This document shows, in pieces, positions 20,680-61,322 of a stretch of DNA of 64,000 nt. The first letter of the stretch is position 1, and each line of letters opens with the position of its first letter. Below the pieces are notes generated by a model. The model searched no databases. It was not told the origin of the DNA and saw nothing but the letters and a program-made list of their open reading frames with translations. Source of the DNA: Myxococcales bacterium (GTDB lineage Bacteria > Myxococcota_A > Polyangia > Polyangiales > Houyiibacteriaceae); contig JAOTYL010000006.1 in assembly GCA_029861865.1 (NCBI GenBank), positions 1 to 64,000 on the forward strand, given 5' to 3'. Made by a program: the position numbers and the translations under genes.

Positions 20680-20705
20680 AGTGAAGGGGAGGGGAGGGCA
20701 CTCGC

Positions 20706-20800
20706 GCCGGCACTGACGCTGGCACTGACACTGGCACTGGCACTGGCGCTGGCGCTGGCGCCGGCGCTGGCGCTGACGCTGACACTCGCACTGACACCGC
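20706..20800 (+). repeat. Hexanucleotide array R1 (CTGRCR on plus strand)
   Basis: About 15 imperfect six-base units (CTGGCA, CTGACA, CTGGCG, CTGACG) run from 27 bases after the stop of the small plus-strand gene to the stop codon of the minus-strand gene at 20801. The same unit recurs at five other places in the window. Confidence 0.9.
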
Positions 20801-21676
20801 TCACGGTTGGAGGATGCCGTTGGGATCTAGCTCCATGGCAAGCCGGTCGAAAACGTTCTCGCTCGCCGGCAATGGCGTCTGAGAGACGCCGATCTCCCGG
20901 TGATTCGTGATCTCCGTCCCCCCGTTTTCCGCGACGACGCGCCTCATCACCTTCGTAGCGGCTTGGTAGCGTGGGCCCTCGACTTGGAGGACGAGCTGAA
21001 GCTCGTTTCCACGGGTGGCTGTCCGAAGCGGGCGCACCCCGTGTCCGCGTATCCACGTGAGCGCCCGGCTGGCAGCTCGGGAGTCGGGGAATGAGAATGC
21101 AAACAGCGATTCGGCGAGCTTGGCTTGGGCAACGAGATGCGCTCCTACGATGATGCCGAGGCGCCCGCGTGCACCGATGACCGCGTGGATCAAGTCCGGC
21201 CCTACCGCCCGGCGAGGCGCCGGTCGAATCGACAGCTCAGCTCCCGAGGGGAGTACCATCTCGAGGCCAGCGACGCTTTGCACGACAGGATCGTTCGCCT
21301 TATCGGCTCGGCCAAGGCCGCCACGCGCGAGCCAGGCTCCAACCTGTTCACCGTGAAGCTCTGTGGGCACGCCCAACGTCCAACCGTTACCGTTCGCCTT
21401 CTCCTCGACCGTGCCGAGCGTGATGCCCGCTTGGACATGGATGATCCTCGACACGTCGTCGACGGAGATGATCGCATCGAGTCGATTCATGATGAGCGCC
21501 GGCCGGTCGGGATGCTCCTCCCCGCCGGGGACTTGCAGGGAGGTGCCGATCTCGTTGGCCAGCTGCAACAAGTGGATGACGGCGCGCGTCGAAGCCGGGC
21601 TGATCGTCGGCTGCATACCGCTCTTGTCGAGGGTGCCCGGAAGGCTGAGCTGCACCTCTTCGAGAAAATTAAACAC
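20801..21676 (-). CDS. FAD-binding (PCMH-type) oxidase-like protein, GlcE-like
   Basis: The 291-residue product resembles the FAD-binding half of the FAD-linked oxidase family. It has PASTRAVIHLLQLANEIGTSLQVPGG, then IISVDDVSRIIHVQAGITLGTVEE and RGRLGIIVGAHL, and a short C-terminal part ending ELDPNGILQP. It lacks the long substrate-binding domain of full-size members, as in GlcE subunits. The start overlaps the upstream FAD-oxidase gene by eight bases, so the two are probably a heteromer or share a pathway. The substrate is unknown. Confidence 0.75.
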   Translation of the reverse strand: MFNFLEEVQLSLPGTLDKSGMQPTISPASTRAVIHLLQLANEIGTSLQVPGGEEHPDRPALIMNRLDAIISVDDVSRIIHVQAGITLGTVEEKANGNGWTLGVPTELHGEQVGAWLARGGLGRADKANDPVVQSVAGLEMVLPSGAELSIRPAPRRAVGPDLIHAVIGARGRLGIIVGAHLVAQAKLAESLFAFSFPDSRAASRALTWIRGHGVRPLRTATRGNELQLVLQVEGPRYQAATKVMRRVVAENGGTEITNHREIGVSQTPLPASENVFDRLAMELDPNGILQP

Positions 21677-43676: not shown

Positions 43677-43898
43677 ATGGCTATGTTCATACGCGTGGAT
43701 GTCGACAAAAGCGTCATCGAAAAGACTCCCGGGCTGGCCGATAAGCTCGTCGAAGTGTGCCCCGTCAACATCTTCAAAGTTGGCTCCAAGCCGAGCTCGG
43801 TCGAAATCGTCGAAGACAACGTCGACGAATGCACCCTCTGCGACCTGTGCATGCAGGCCTCCCCCAAGGGGGTGCGCGTGGTGAAGTTGTACGAGTAG
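43677..43898 (+). CDS. Small [4Fe-4S] ferredoxin
   Basis: The 73-residue protein has four cysteines that can ligand one [4Fe-4S] cluster: C28 in EVCPVN, then C52, C55 and C58 in ECTLCDLCMQASPKG. The second half-motif lacks the fourth cysteine, so a single cluster is expected. It is the last gene of the operon. It may donate electrons to a partner encoded elsewhere. None of the neighbours here is a clear reductase. Confidence 0.85.
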   Translation: MAMFIRVDVDKSVIEKTPGLADKLVEVCPVNIFKVGSKPSSVEIVEDNVDECTLCDLCMQASPKGVRVVKLYE

Positions 43899-43909
43899 GG
43901 GCGTCAACC

Positions 43910-44043
43910 GGTGACCCGGGCCACGGCACGGGACGGGCGTGCTCGCAATGGGGCCCCGGTCGCCCTTTGCGATAAGTACGGATCCTGACGCGGGCTCCTC
44001 CCCATCGCTGTGCTGCCCATCCCGCGCCGCGGCCCGAGTCACC
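43910..44043 (-). repeat. Long inverted-repeat element, copy A
   Basis: A 24-base arm at 43910-43933 (GGTGACCCGGGCC...) matches the reverse complement of 44020-44043 at 21 of 24 positions. As minus-strand RNA, the three differences become G-U wobbles. Outside the arms lie GCGTCAAC (left) and TACTCCTCGAGAACAG (right), identical to copy B at 54.5 kb. The loop is 86 bases. With the array below it fills 43899-44339, where I see no gene. Confidence 0.85.
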
Positions 44044-44055
44044 TACTCCTCGAGA

Positions 44056-44331
44056 ACAGCGTCAGCGACAGTTGCCAGTGCCAGTGCCAGTGTCAGTGTC
44101 ACTGTCAGCGACAGTGCCAGTGCCAGTGACAGTGCCAGTGTCAGTGCCAGCGACAGTGTCAGTGCCAGTGCCAGCGACGGTGTCAGCGACAGTGCCAGTG
44201 CCAGCGACAGCGACAGTGTGAGTGGCAGCGCCAGTGCCAGTGTCAGCGACAGTGTCAGTGCCAGCGACAGTGCCAGTGCCAGTGCCAGCGACAGTGCCAG
44301 TGTCAGCGGCAGCGCCAGTGTCCGCGACAGG
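44056..44331 (+). repeat. Hexanucleotide array R2 (GNCAGY on plus strand), the longest copy
   Basis: About 46 units of GTCAGT, GCCAGT, GACAGT, GTCAGC, GCCAGC, GACAGC and a few variants run unbroken. The array abuts the stop codon of the minus-strand gene at 44340 (8 bases) and the border of inverted-repeat copy A. The frame reads as alternating Ala/Val/Asp and Ser with no start or other gene support. Confidence 0.95.
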
Positions 44332-54488: not shown

Positions 54489-54507
54489 CAGCGGCTCTGC
54501 GTCAACC

Positions 54508-54674
54508 GGTGACCCGGGGCGCGCGACAGGCACGCCCTCGCCCGCTCAGACATCCTCGGCGGGGATGTTTGGGGGCGGTGTTGAATCCCTCCGAGTCGCA
54601 AGCGCGAGCAAGATGGGTTGGCGCCTGCGGAACTCGCGTTCGAGGACATGCCTGCTCGCGCGCCCCGGGTCACC
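54508..54674 (-). repeat. Long inverted-repeat element, copy B
   Basis: A 24-base arm at 54508-54531 (GGTGACCCGGGGCGCGCGA...) matches the reverse complement of 54650-54674 with one inserted base. GCGTCAAC before the left arm and TACTCCTCGAGAACAG after the right arm are shared with copy A at 43.9 kb. The loop is 118 bases and not similar to copy A. No gene is seen in 54489-54730. Confidence 0.88.
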
Positions 54675-54687
54675 TACTCCTCGAGAA

Positions 54688-54730
54688 CAGTGTCAGTGCC
54701 AGTGTCAGTGGCGGTGCCAGTGTCAGCGCC
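54688..54730 (+). repeat. Hexanucleotide array R3 (GNCAGY on plus strand)
   Basis: About seven units (TGTCAG, TGCCAG, with one TGGCGG) lie between inverted-repeat copy B and the stop codon of the minus-strand gene at 54731, which it directly abuts. Confidence 0.85.
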
Positions 54731-55786
54731 TTAGAACTTGCGGGTTTCGCCGATGTGGAGGAGCCAGCCGCGTTGCTCGCCAAGAGGGCTTGCGGCTGCT
54801 GCTTTGCGAAAACGTTCTGGGGGTTCGTGGAGTGGCTCGTCGGAGAGATCGAAGGTGCCGTAGTGCATGGCCACGGCGGCTCGGGCCTTCAGATCGATCG
54901 CTGCTTGGACGGCTTCCTCGGGGTTCAGGTGCGACGCCTTCATCATCGCGACCGGCTCGTAGGCGCCGATCGGAACGGCCGCGAGGTCGAAGGGCCCGAG
55001 CGCCTCGGCGATCTTTGCAAAACCGTCGAAGTACCCGGTGTCACCCGCGAAGTAGAAGCGCCGCTTCGTTCCGACTACCGCCCATGAAGACCAAAGCGCT
55101 TCCCGATCGTCGTCGAGGCCTCGTTTGCTCCAGTGTTGGGCCGGTAGACAGTGTACGCGGACGCCTTCGTATTCGATCGAGTCACCCCAGTCGAGCTCTT
55201 CCACGTTGTCGATCCCGTTTTCGCGTAGGAGCTCGCCGTTCTCGAGAGGGACGAAGAAACGCGTGTCGGGATTTCGTTTGGCGAGGGCGACCAGGGTGGG
55301 CAGGTCGAGATGGTCGTAGTGATTGTGCGAGACCACGACGAAATCGATCGGAGGTAGATCCTGCATCGCGACACCAGGAGGCACGAAGCGCCGCGGGCCG
55401 GCGAACGACACCGGGCTCGGAGTCTCCGACCAGATCGGATCGGTCAGAAAGGTGACGTGATCCATTTGCACGAGCATCGTCGAGTGGCCGACCCAGGTCA
55501 CGGTAGGTGTGCTGTGCTCGGCGTTCTCGCGGAGGTAGGCACCGTCGTTGGCGATTTCGTCGGGTGCACCGGGCCGGTCAAGAAAGGAGCCGGCGATACG
55601 CCTCAAGAAGAACGGAAAGCGGACCGAGAGGCTGCCGTGCGGCAGATCGCCTGTGAAGTTCAAGAAGCGACCGTCCGAGTCACGCGGTGCCGGCCCGAGC
55701 GAACCGATCGCGGGCTCTGCAGCGACCGAGGTGACCAGACACAGAGCGAGAAGTGCGAGCGCCAAAAAAGTTGGCCTTCGGAACAC
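54731..55786 (-). CDS. Exported MBL-fold hydrolase (NAPE-PLD/UlaG-like)
   Basis: The 351-residue product has a signal peptide (FLALALLALCLVTSVAAEP). A metallo-beta-lactamase fold follows: VTWVGHSTMLVQMDHVTFLTDPIWS, SHNHYDHLDLPTLVAL, the FYFAGDTGYFDGF and LAAVPIGAYEPVAMM segments, and HYGTFDLSDEPLHEPPERF. The pattern is that of N-acylphosphatidylethanolamine phospholipase D-like enzymes. It probably acts in the periplasm on a lipid or phosphodiester. The start is a GTG. Confidence 0.85.
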   Translation of the reverse strand: MFRRPTFLALALLALCLVTSVAAEPAIGSLGPAPRDSDGRFLNFTGDLPHGSLSVRFPFFLRRIAGSFLDRPGAPDEIANDGAYLRENAEHSTPTVTWVGHSTMLVQMDHVTFLTDPIWSETPSPVSFAGPRRFVPPGVAMQDLPPIDFVVVSHNHYDHLDLPTLVALAKRNPDTRFFVPLENGELLRENGIDNVEELDWGDSIEYEGVRVHCLPAQHWSKRGLDDDREALWSSWAVVGTKRRFYFAGDTGYFDGFAKIAEALGPFDLAAVPIGAYEPVAMMKASHLNPEEAVQAAIDLKARAAVAMHYGTFDLSDEPLHEPPERFRKAAAASPLGEQRGWLLHIGETRKF

Positions 55787-55813: not shown

Positions 55814-55866
55814 CCGGCACAGGCGCTGACGCCGACACTGCCACTGACACTGGCCCTGCCCCTGAA
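55814..55866 (+). repeat. Hexanucleotide array R4, degenerate (CTGRCR on plus strand)
   Basis: About eight decayed units (CTGACG, CTGCCA, CTGACA, CTGGCC) sit between the start of the minus-strand MBL gene and the plus-strand gene at 55940. It is weaker than the other arrays, possibly older. Confidence 0.65.
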
Positions 55867-58514: not shown

Positions 58515-58559
58515 GTAGGCACAGATTATTCCGGTGATCGCCTCCGCGCCAGTACCCGG

Positions 58560-58638
58560 GTCAGTGTCAGTGTCAGTGCCAGCGCCAGTGCCAGTGTCAG
58601 CGTCAGTGCCAGCGCCAGTGTCAGTGCCAGCGCCAGTC
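58560..58638 (+). repeat. Hexanucleotide array R5 (GNCAGY on plus strand)
   Basis: About 13 units (TGTCAG, TGCCAG, CGCCAG, CGTCAG) fill the 126 bases between the FMO start and the stop codon of the minus-strand TonB receptor gene at 58641, stopping 2 bases before it. Confidence 0.9.
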
Positions 58639-58640
58639 GC

Positions 58641-61322
58641 TTAGAGGCGGAATCCTATTTGAAAGATGAAGCTCCGAGGTGCTCCGGCCGCGACGTGTCG
58701 GGCGGGTGTCCCCGAGGGCGTGGCTCCCGGGTTCCAATTCGATTCGAAGATGAACTCCTGGGCCGCATATTGCACGTTCACGACGTTGTAGATCTGTAAG
58801 CCCAGCTCGAAAAACCGCCAAGAGAGCCCTGCTGAGAGGTCGAGGAGGTTGACTCGCGGGGAGCGCTCGGCAAACCGAAGAGGTCGTTCGCCGAGGAAGG
58901 TGTACGCAAGGCCCACATTTCCGCGAAGCGGATATCTTCCAAGCATGACGAGCTGTCCTGCTGCGCCGAGGTCGAGCCGAAGAAGCCACGGGGGTACGAA
59001 CGGTACGGGGTCGCCTGCTTGGAGGCCGGCACTTGGCTCGCCGGGCTCGGGCTCCGGAGTTTCGTCCAGGGTTGCGTGCGCGTAGGTCACCGATACCGCG
59101 CCAAACAGCCATGGGAGCGGACGAAACTGCGAATAGAAAGTTGCGCCGATGCGCGTCGTTGGACCGAGCTCTTCAAAGCGAGCCTCGTGTGCTTCGAAGA
59201 TCAAATCGTTGTCGAGCTTCGCAAGGAAGCCTGTCAAAGCGAGCTTTAGTTGCTCGTTCTGACCGATCCGAGATCGCAAACCCACGTCCGCCGAGTGTAC
59301 TCGGGTAAACGGAACGCCTTCGTTCTCGACTAAGGAACGAGCTTGCGGAGAACGAAAGCCGCGACCGTAGGCCAGTACGATGTCGAGCTCCTCGATCGGT
59401 TTGACGGTGACTACGGCACGGGGCCCGACAGCGACGCCTGCCGCCGTGCGCCTGTAACCTGGGGTCGAGTCGGGCGGTAGCGGATCCGGCCGCACGCTTT
59501 CCTCCAGGTCGTTGACATCGAAGAAGAGCACGTCGGTTCGGACGCCGCCTTTGATGTTCAGGAACCGAGTGAAGTCCCAATCGAGGTCGAGCCACATACC
59601 GATGTCGCCTTGCGTGATGTCGGCGTCGATTCGCTCCTGGTAGATGCGATTCGACGGGGCTTCGATCAGATTCAGCTCCTGCCCGATGATGTCGACACGA
59701 CCCGCGATGCCAAGCTCTACGGTGCCCTTCGCCCAGTCTGCGGGGGTGAACTGCCTGGTTCGATGCCGGGCGTTGCCGCCTAGGACGAAACGACGATCGA
59801 GCTGCTCAATGAGGTCGCCGGGGGTATCCCCGTTCTCGTCGGTCTGCAGAAACCCGGTGAAGTTCTGCTTCAATCGAAAGTCGTGAAACTGAACCCACAG
59901 ACCGAAGCTCGAGTTTCGAAGGTTCTCGTCGCGGCGTTCGCCGGACACCCCGAGCGTGCCCGCCATGTTGAAGCCATTTTGAGCTCGCGCCGTCTCGAAT
60001 GGATAGACACCCAACCAATCGATCTCTCCTGCTTGGACGTCGTCGAGGCGCACGACCCCTGCGAGGTCATACCGGGTGCCGCCGAAACCGGCGTGGACGC
60101 GAAAGCGCCACTTGTCGCGACCGAAGCCGTATTGAAACATCACCGATCCATCGATCCCGCCTCGATTTTCGCCGAACCCGTCGGTTCGTTGCAGTTGGAA
60201 CGCCCCGAAAGTGTCCGTGGCGCCTCTTTCGGGCGCGAAAATCGCGATCTGTCGAAACGTGCGGAAGGAGCCGAGCTCGGTCTTGGCGTAGACCCCGCGC
60301 TCGAGGACGCCGAGATCGTAGTCGACGCTGCCAGCGATCGCGAAGTCACCTTGTCGCGGATCGTAGACACCCTCGACCACGCGCAGGTCACGCACGGTCT
60401 CCGGGATGACGAAGTTGAGATATGCATAACCCTGGCCGTGGATGTGCGACGGCTGATTGACTGGAACGCCCCCGACTTTGAGCTCGATGTCCTGTCCGTG
60501 CTCGGAATCGAAGCCTCTCAAGAAGATGCGCTCGCCCACTGCACCACCTTCTGGGCGCGCGACGTAGAGACCGGGCACGCGTTTGAGGAGATCGCTTGCG
60601 GTGAGGACCGGGACGGCATCGAGGATCTGTCGATCGATGTTGAAGTCTGCAGCTCCTCTTCCACCCGATCGCAGGCGCTCCGCATCGACCTCCGCGTCGG
60701 TTCGGTAGACATCAGGCTCAGGCACCTTCGTCTTCACCTCGGCGATCTCTGCGGGGCCGGCTTGCGCGGGGACGTTGCCTGGTATTGGGGTTGCTGCAAC
60801 GTGCGGCGCGGCCTGCGGTTCGTGGGTCTCGCCTTCGTGGGGAACGCCAGCCGCAGGAGGCTCGAAATGCACCGCAACCCGAATCCGGCTCGATACGGGG
60901 GTGTCCCCGCGACGCGCAGGCTCGAAGGTCCAGGTTCTCACCGCCTCGATCGCTGCTTGGTCGAAATCGCCGCCGGCCGAGTGCTCGACCACGATGTCCG
61001 TCACGCTCGCCTCCGCGGTGACCGTGATCCGCAGAACGACGGTCGGGTGGACCCCTTCGCCCTCTCGGCCGGGCGGGTAGTGGGGGGGCGGCGCCTCGAT
61101 CAGGTGCGGCGGGTGCAGCTCAGTGCCAGTGTCAGTGCCAGTGCCAGTGTCAGCGTCAGTGTCAGCGTCAGTGCCAGCGTCAGTGTCTGCGCCAGCGTCA
61201 GTGTCTGCGCCAGTGTCAGTGCCAGCGTCCGGAACGTCCTGCGCTTGGACCGATGCGCTTGCCAACAGGGCCACAGCCCAGACCACCACGATCCTCGTGT
61301 TGTTGTTTCTGATTCGTGTCAT
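58641..61322 (-). CDS. TonB-dependent outer-membrane receptor with fused TonB C-terminal-type domain
   Basis: The 893-residue product has a signal peptide (VVVWAVALLASASVQAQ) and an Asp/Thr/Gly/Ala repeat linker (residues 31-65) encoded by array R6. A TonB C-terminal-like domain follows (about 66-165, TVVLRITVTAEASVTDIVVEHSAGGDFDQAAIEAVRTWTFEPARRG), then plug and barrel ending FIFQIGFRL. Plug features include ASDLLKRVPGLYVARPEGG and FLRGFDSEHG. Fused TonB_C parts occur in other deltaproteobacteria. The ligand is unknown. It lies directly downstream of a His/Cys-rich exported protein. Confidence 0.88.
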   Translation of the reverse strand: MTRIRNNNTRIVVVWAVALLASASVQAQDVPDAGTDTGADTDAGADTDAGTDADTDADTGTGTDTGTELHPPHLIEAPPPHYPPGREGEGVHPTVVLRITVTAEASVTDIVVEHSAGGDFDQAAIEAVRTWTFEPARRGDTPVSSRIRVAVHFEPPAAGVPHEGETHEPQAAPHVAATPIPGNVPAQAGPAEIAEVKTKVPEPDVYRTDAEVDAERLRSGGRGAADFNIDRQILDAVPVLTASDLLKRVPGLYVARPEGGAVGERIFLRGFDSEHGQDIELKVGGVPVNQPSHIHGQGYAYLNFVIPETVRDLRVVEGVYDPRQGDFAIAGSVDYDLGVLERGVYAKTELGSFRTFRQIAIFAPERGATDTFGAFQLQRTDGFGENRGGIDGSVMFQYGFGRDKWRFRVHAGFGGTRYDLAGVVRLDDVQAGEIDWLGVYPFETARAQNGFNMAGTLGVSGERRDENLRNSSFGLWVQFHDFRLKQNFTGFLQTDENGDTPGDLIEQLDRRFVLGGNARHRTRQFTPADWAKGTVELGIAGRVDIIGQELNLIEAPSNRIYQERIDADITQGDIGMWLDLDWDFTRFLNIKGGVRTDVLFFDVNDLEESVRPDPLPPDSTPGYRRTAAGVAVGPRAVVTVKPIEELDIVLAYGRGFRSPQARSLVENEGVPFTRVHSADVGLRSRIGQNEQLKLALTGFLAKLDNDLIFEAHEARFEELGPTTRIGATFYSQFRPLPWLFGAVSVTYAHATLDETPEPEPGEPSAGLQAGDPVPFVPPWLLRLDLGAAGQLVMLGRYPLRGNVGLAYTFLGERPLRFAERSPRVNLLDLSAGLSWRFFELGLQIYNVVNVQYAAQEFIFESNWNPGATPSGTPARHVAAGAPRSFIFQIGFRL
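61119..61228 (+). repeat. Hexanucleotide array R6 inside the TonB receptor gene
   Basis: About 18 units (GTCAGT, GCCAGT, GTCAGC, GCCAGC, GTCTGC) run in frame within the minus-strand receptor gene. They encode the Asp/Gly-Thr/Ala linker after the signal peptide. It is the only array with a coding reading. Confidence 0.9.

Follow-up and report, generated by a model that had tools for sequence, protein, structure and literature searches.

In the genus to which this DNA belongs, a complete genetic element was found that consists of a hexamer array, a hairpin, gene A, the convergent gene B, a second hairpin and a second array in the same orientation as the first. We give about an even chance to the reading that the dispersed hexamer arrays form the non-coding part of a family of selfish, mobile-looking elements that code for proteins by one or two small genes of the four-helix-bundle type, similar to 23S rRNA IVPs. 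Movement of the element, binding of the A and B proteins to the arrays and a role in array growth are what we infer. A mobile origin had been one of the candidates named in the original prediction, which was made on six arrays in the window, and it is now strongly supported by the array-linked four-helix-bundle gene elements and by a hairpin element, E1.

The window, 64,000 nucleotides long, lies at the beginning of contig C5 in a genome (G000) of 4.23 Mb and 23 contigs. The closest named relatives of the genome are uncultured Myxococcota MAGs, including the single-contig chromosome CP070713.1 and SG8_38.

The A/B gene pair and its flanking arrays

The gene pair, designated E2, lies outside the window and comprises the convergent genes A and B, with a long hairpin ahead of each, between two arrays. 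A and B are TIGR02436/PF05635 four-helix-bundle proteins, scoring 49 and 63.5 bits against the TIGR02436 cut-off of 24, and the Pfam cut-off was passed by 16 of 16 A/B proteins. The order array (plus), A (plus), B (minus), array (plus) was observed at all eight loci of the genome with assembled flanks, as far as the contigs reach, one of the loci being truncated and some cut by contig ends. In congeners, 32 distinct A/B loci obey the rule of a single array orientation with no exception. Three loci had no visible array; two of these are at contig ends and the third (L310) belongs to a more distant subfamily. The distance from array to ATG is mostly 80-145 bp, with the hairpin in between, and the A/B genes are under purifying selection (dN/dS 0.07-0.14).

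Intact copies hold only A and B between the arrays, and no transposase, recombinase or reverse transcriptase was found in the element. E2 therefore lacks the encoded transposase or recombinase of a DNA transposon or insertion sequence, as well as the reverse transcriptase and template/variable repeats that accompany the Avd gene in a diversity-generating retroelement. A 23S rRNA intervening sequence lies inside the rRNA gene, whereas the A/B copies lie between arrays in the spacers of protein genes. A single RVT_1 gene is present in the genome (C6:2949-3413), far from most A/B copies. No clean insertion with target duplication was seen; the array flanks would mask a duplication, and the corresponding sites of the sister species G018 are short or decayed.

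Several contigs end in hexamer arrays or A/B elements (C2 start, C3 end, C5 end, C6 start and end, C10 start), so that the copy numbers are lower bounds, also in the more fragmented genomes. One of these ends, positions 1-6208 of C6 (L047), contains an RAYT/IS200-like ORF, a reverse transcriptase (PF00078) and ORFs named by eye as relaxase/MobC-like. It is bounded by two 215-bp direct repeats, 96% identical, that include hexamer arrays, and the stretch resembles a mobilizable element that was joined at an array.

The association of the genes with hexamer arrays was also observed in other genera of Polyangia. In G035, G122, G189, G252 and G316, loci of the gene family are flanked by degenerate hexamer arrays with other units, CCGACT, GACCGC, CGTCRG and CGGRGT among them. 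These five genera were examined because repeat matches came first, gene copies then being found there; the 20 stretches tested were taken from the list of gene matches regardless of repeats. An array of period 6 and at least 60 bp lay within 500 bp of 26 of 26 genes, compared with a mean of 1.3 and a maximum of 5 of 26 for random places in the same stretches. The base period of the arrays near these genes was 6 in 54 of 78 and a multiple of 6 in 11 more (65 of 78). The rule covers a branch of the PF05635 family, since the top-scoring Pfam loci often consist of a single gene without arrays (L347, L352, for instance). In G066, the reading frame of many PF05635 copies is crossed by one or two TAG codons, and these copies could be pseudogenes or reflect TAG reassignment.

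Window arrays and their history in sister species

Tandem Repeats Finder recovered the six arrays where the original prediction had placed them; no other array of 6-bp period in the window is clearly significant. The limits given here are those of a phase-aware scan. The longest, a plus-strand (CAGYGN)n array of 274 bp at 44057-44330, fills the gap between E1 and the stop codon of a minus-strand GST-like gene, from which it is 9 bp away. E1 itself (43901-44059, plus strand) is a 159-bp inverted-repeat element directly upstream of this array; its terminus reads CTCGAGAACAG, followed by the array, and the RNA fold of 43901-44050 has a z score of -4.8. The array at 54688-54730 (plus strand), which abuts the stop of the minus-strand gene 54731-55765, is likewise preceded by a plus-strand E1, in this case a variant (54499-54687) with conserved ends and a replaced middle; at that site, G018 has an E1 that is typical but shortened. 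The minus-strand array at 20697-20797 begins 3 bp past the stop of the minus-strand gene 20801-21676 and has the same orientation as the gene, while the plus-strand array at 58546-58637 lies 3 bp past the stop of a TonB-domain receptor gene. The array at 55816-55864 (minus strand) occupies a divergent intergenic spacer, in which the start codons on either side are 50 and 75 bp away. Only the array at 61121-61229 is coding, as originally claimed. It is on the plus strand, antisense to the TonB-domain receptor gene 58641-61289 (minus strand); it reads DAGTDTGADTDAG..., and the product is a low-complexity stretch rich in D, A, G and T. A/B genes were found near none of the six arrays, and an Rfam search of the window matched only a tRNA.

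A ferredoxin-like small ORF (43683-43898) is located between the succinyl-CoA ligase alpha gene and E1, which starts 2 bp past its stop. At the site orthologous to the 44057 array, the stop of the ferredoxin-like ORF is immediately followed in other congeners (L050, L051, L055, L057) by an inverted-repeat element that is not E1 and reads GGGGACACTCTCC...GGAGAGTGTCCCC.

The sister species G018 is about 90% identical to the window and collinear with it. It has 24 four-unit matches to the array pattern, compared with 931 in G000, and no A/B genes, and its arrays are shorter or decayed at five of the six window sites. The array at 20697 is found in the same place, and is shorter, in both G018 and G009; that at 55816-55864 is kept in G018 with differences mostly at degenerate positions; the site of 58546-58637 has one or two units at most; and the coding array is shorter. 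Four sites of G000 elements (E2a, E2c, E2d and E2g) were compared with G018. At the E2a site, G018 carries a deleted E1 remnant and a short array, and the gene pair is absent. The E2c site has one or two units and the E2g site a few decayed units, while the short array at the E2d site is accompanied by what looks like a decayed element end, suggesting loss as well as gain. Both G018 and G009 have the array after the FAD oxidase gene at the matching place, and its length differs. Together, the comparisons with G018 and G009 indicate that the arrays are passed on by descent and that their length changes rapidly; a lineage that lacks the genes has short arrays, which is a co-occurrence only.

Origin of the arrays

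The unit had been described as GNCAGY. The family is the same, and CAGYGN proved to be the better notation. The genome contains 931 perfect four-unit matches (474 + 457) to CAGYGN versus 13 for the reversed control pattern. The original prediction had proposed a scan of the genome and its relatives; arrays were found throughout the genus, in 18 of 19 genomes, and are thus not absent from relatives, while the other genera of the family are near zero. The control motif (GYGACN) gave hundreds of matches in other Polyangia genera (G154, G157, G161, G172, G173), where no PF05635 gene was detected, and represents another hexamer family without the genes. Among 1,358 CAGYGN units, positions 1, 3 and 5 (C, G and G) are 97-99% invariant, position 2 is A in 90%, position 4 accepts T or C and position 6 any base. 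As the scan weights positions 1, 2, 3 and 5 equally, the looser position 2 is genuine. No sign of copying of whole arrays between loci was seen, as the arrays have no long runs of identical units in common beyond chance. An assembly artefact is unlikely, given that 18 of 19 independent assemblies, the single-contig G014 among them, contain such arrays.

The main rival to a selfish-element origin, to which we assign a substantial but minority chance, is that the arrays are neutral microsatellites that grew by slippage in unconstrained spacer past stop codons while other neutral DNA was lost. In that case the elements would only exploit the arrays as safe places to land, without contributing to their formation or upkeep. 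The arrays do have the short tandem unit, the many intergenic sites and the lineage restriction of microsatellite- or STRR-like repeats. Their location past stops and between convergent genes, the orthologous arrays of different length in G018 and G009, and local higher-order periods are consistent with this explanation, as is the occurrence of arrays in genomes without detected A/B genes: G005 and G004, both fragmented assemblies, have 158 and 225 array matches and no A/B gene detected. On the side of the selfish-element reading, gene count and array count are weakly correlated across 19 genomes (rho 0.48, p 0.04). Growth by slippage, in turn, predicts that neighbouring units are alike, and adjacent identical units were rarer than in shuffles (lag 1, z -3.4). 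Identical units were commoner than in shuffles at lags 2, 3 and 5, a similarity that taken alone fits the microsatellite explanation; the whole pattern, low at lag 1 and high at lags 2, 3 and 5, is not expected from plain unit-by-unit slippage. Moreover, a single degenerate motif dominates the genus, the gene-bearing other genera have other hexamers, mostly of period 6, and the odd positions of the unit are fixed while the even ones vary, all of which argues against neutral microsatellites.

The placement of the arrays was analysed in 1.62 Mb (38% of the genome) containing 91 arrays, a sample partly chosen for matches to E1 or four-helix-bundle genes, in which genes were called by a purpose-made codon-usage caller. 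In this sample 70 arrays are intergenic, 18 overlap coding sequence and 3 are at edges, while intergenic DNA makes up 9.8% of the sequence. For well-scored genes and non-overlapping edges, 28 of 75 stop-facing edges were 0-10 bp from the stop, compared with 2 of 52 start-facing edges near the start (Fisher p 4.6e-6), and a further 16 genes end inside an array. The position of the array within the residual spacer was non-uniform where the flanking genes are in tandem (p 3e-7) or convergent (p 1.6e-5); in the divergent spacers of the sample no departure from uniformity was detected. Convergent spacers hold 25 of the 70 intergenic arrays and 13% of intergenic bases.

The proximity to stops and the excess in convergent spacers are what would be expected of host regulatory elements at gene 3' ends, whether terminators, 3'-UTR structures or binding sites of nucleoid or replication proteins, an explanation that we consider unlikely. 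The original prediction had reported arrays just past stop codons with CTGRCR on the gene strand. In the window the proximity to stops was confirmed (3, 9, 0 and 3 bp at 20697, 44057, 54688 and 58546), but the strand rule fits only the last three; at the first array, originally placed at 20706, the strand had been misread, the gene strand being CAGYGN. A fixed orientation relative to the neighbouring gene did not emerge from the sample either (22 anti versus 12 same, p = 0.12), and no relation of array orientation to GC skew, used as a guide to the replichore, was detected there (p 0.19). The originally claimed placement by stops is thus upheld and non-random, and the claimed strand is not upheld. 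Furthermore, a 3'-UTR RNA structure, also an original candidate, was not borne out, both array strands folding no better than shuffles (z -1.0 and -1.4). The sister species G018 lives with very few arrays, and more distant congeners (L238-L242) have none at the orthologous site after the MBL gene, which is also against a host regulatory function.

E1 has the properties of a MITE-like hairpin, being short and non-coding with terminal inverted repeats and dispersed copies, and most of its near-full copies end in an array in fixed orientation; that the arrays are variable tails of E1 and spread mainly with it is nevertheless very improbable, given that there are only about 13 such copies, whereas the number of arrays in the whole genome extrapolates to roughly 200, that about one unit or none follows several copies of E1 (L166, L169, L178), and that four of the six window arrays are without E1.

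If the arrays are the non-coding partner of the selfish element family, those of the window would be gene-less (solo) copies or unoccupied landing sites. The gene pair may be gained or lost when it inserts into an array or when the arrays on its two sides recombine. The A/B proteins, which have ring-forming relatives in S23 and in Avd of diversity-generating retroelements, might recognise sequence with a 6-bp period, and arrays would persist mainly past stop codons, where insertion and length change by six bases are presumably harmless. Several observations speak against the selfish-element reading: most arrays have no A/B genes nearby, G005 and G004 have arrays and no detected A/B gene, no clean insertion and no gene for a mobility enzyme was seen, the E2d site points to loss as well as gain, arrays share no long unit runs beyond chance, and the test in other genera covers five genera that were first noticed for their repeats.

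Relation to known systems

These findings raise the possibility, put forward tentatively, of a new class of bacterial selfish system, whose four-helix-bundle proteins would bind degenerate six-base arrays, maintain them and spread them. The protein would set the period, the base sequence would drift from lineage to lineage, and each genome would carry along several hundred solo arrays in trans. No description of such a gene-repeat partnership was found in the literature searched, a limited search that is not proof of absence, and nothing relevant was found there on myxobacterial repeats or on four-helix-bundle proteins together with repeats. To our knowledge, neither a clear function nor a way of spreading has been established for the four-helix-bundle genes of the IVP/S23 type, although these are familiar since long ago; lineage-specific hexamer arrays tied to such genes across Polyangia provide a concrete target. 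Sister species with and without A/B genes constitute a natural experiment, and simple binding and stability assays are possible. The link between genes and arrays could also explain why the spacers of a whole genus are filled by one degenerate hexamer and not by a variety of random microsatellites.

The STRR sequences of cyanobacteria are short tandemly repeated repetitive heptamers. Like them, the arrays are short, degenerate, tandem, intergenic, dispersed and lineage-specific repeats in a bacterium; unlike them, they have a six-base period, prefer stop codons and stand in a fixed association with two conserved genes and a hairpin element. Interspersed repeats of the REP/BOX/MIRU type are non-coding and intergenic, with hairpins and variable tandem units, and often follow genes. 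The arrays and E1 share all of these features and differ in that the unit has six bases, that an array can reach 45 units and that there is physical linkage to protein-coding elements.

The 23S rRNA intervening sequence with its S23/IVP gene has been described as a 'selfish genetic element' in helix 45 of Coxiella 23S rRNA (PMC4990558). E2 resembles it in the TIGR02436/PF05635 protein family, the hairpins, the presumed selfish nature and a means of spread that is not known, but is free-standing in intergenic hexamer arrays outside the rRNA gene and usually has two convergent genes. PF05635 also resembles Avd of diversity-generating retroelements (PMC10053308); by family assignment, A and B have the homologous four-helix-bundle fold, while E2 is without a reverse transcriptase or template/variable repeat. 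The defining architecture of the partnership of genes and arrays is shared by neither rRNA intervening sequences nor STRR-type repeats.
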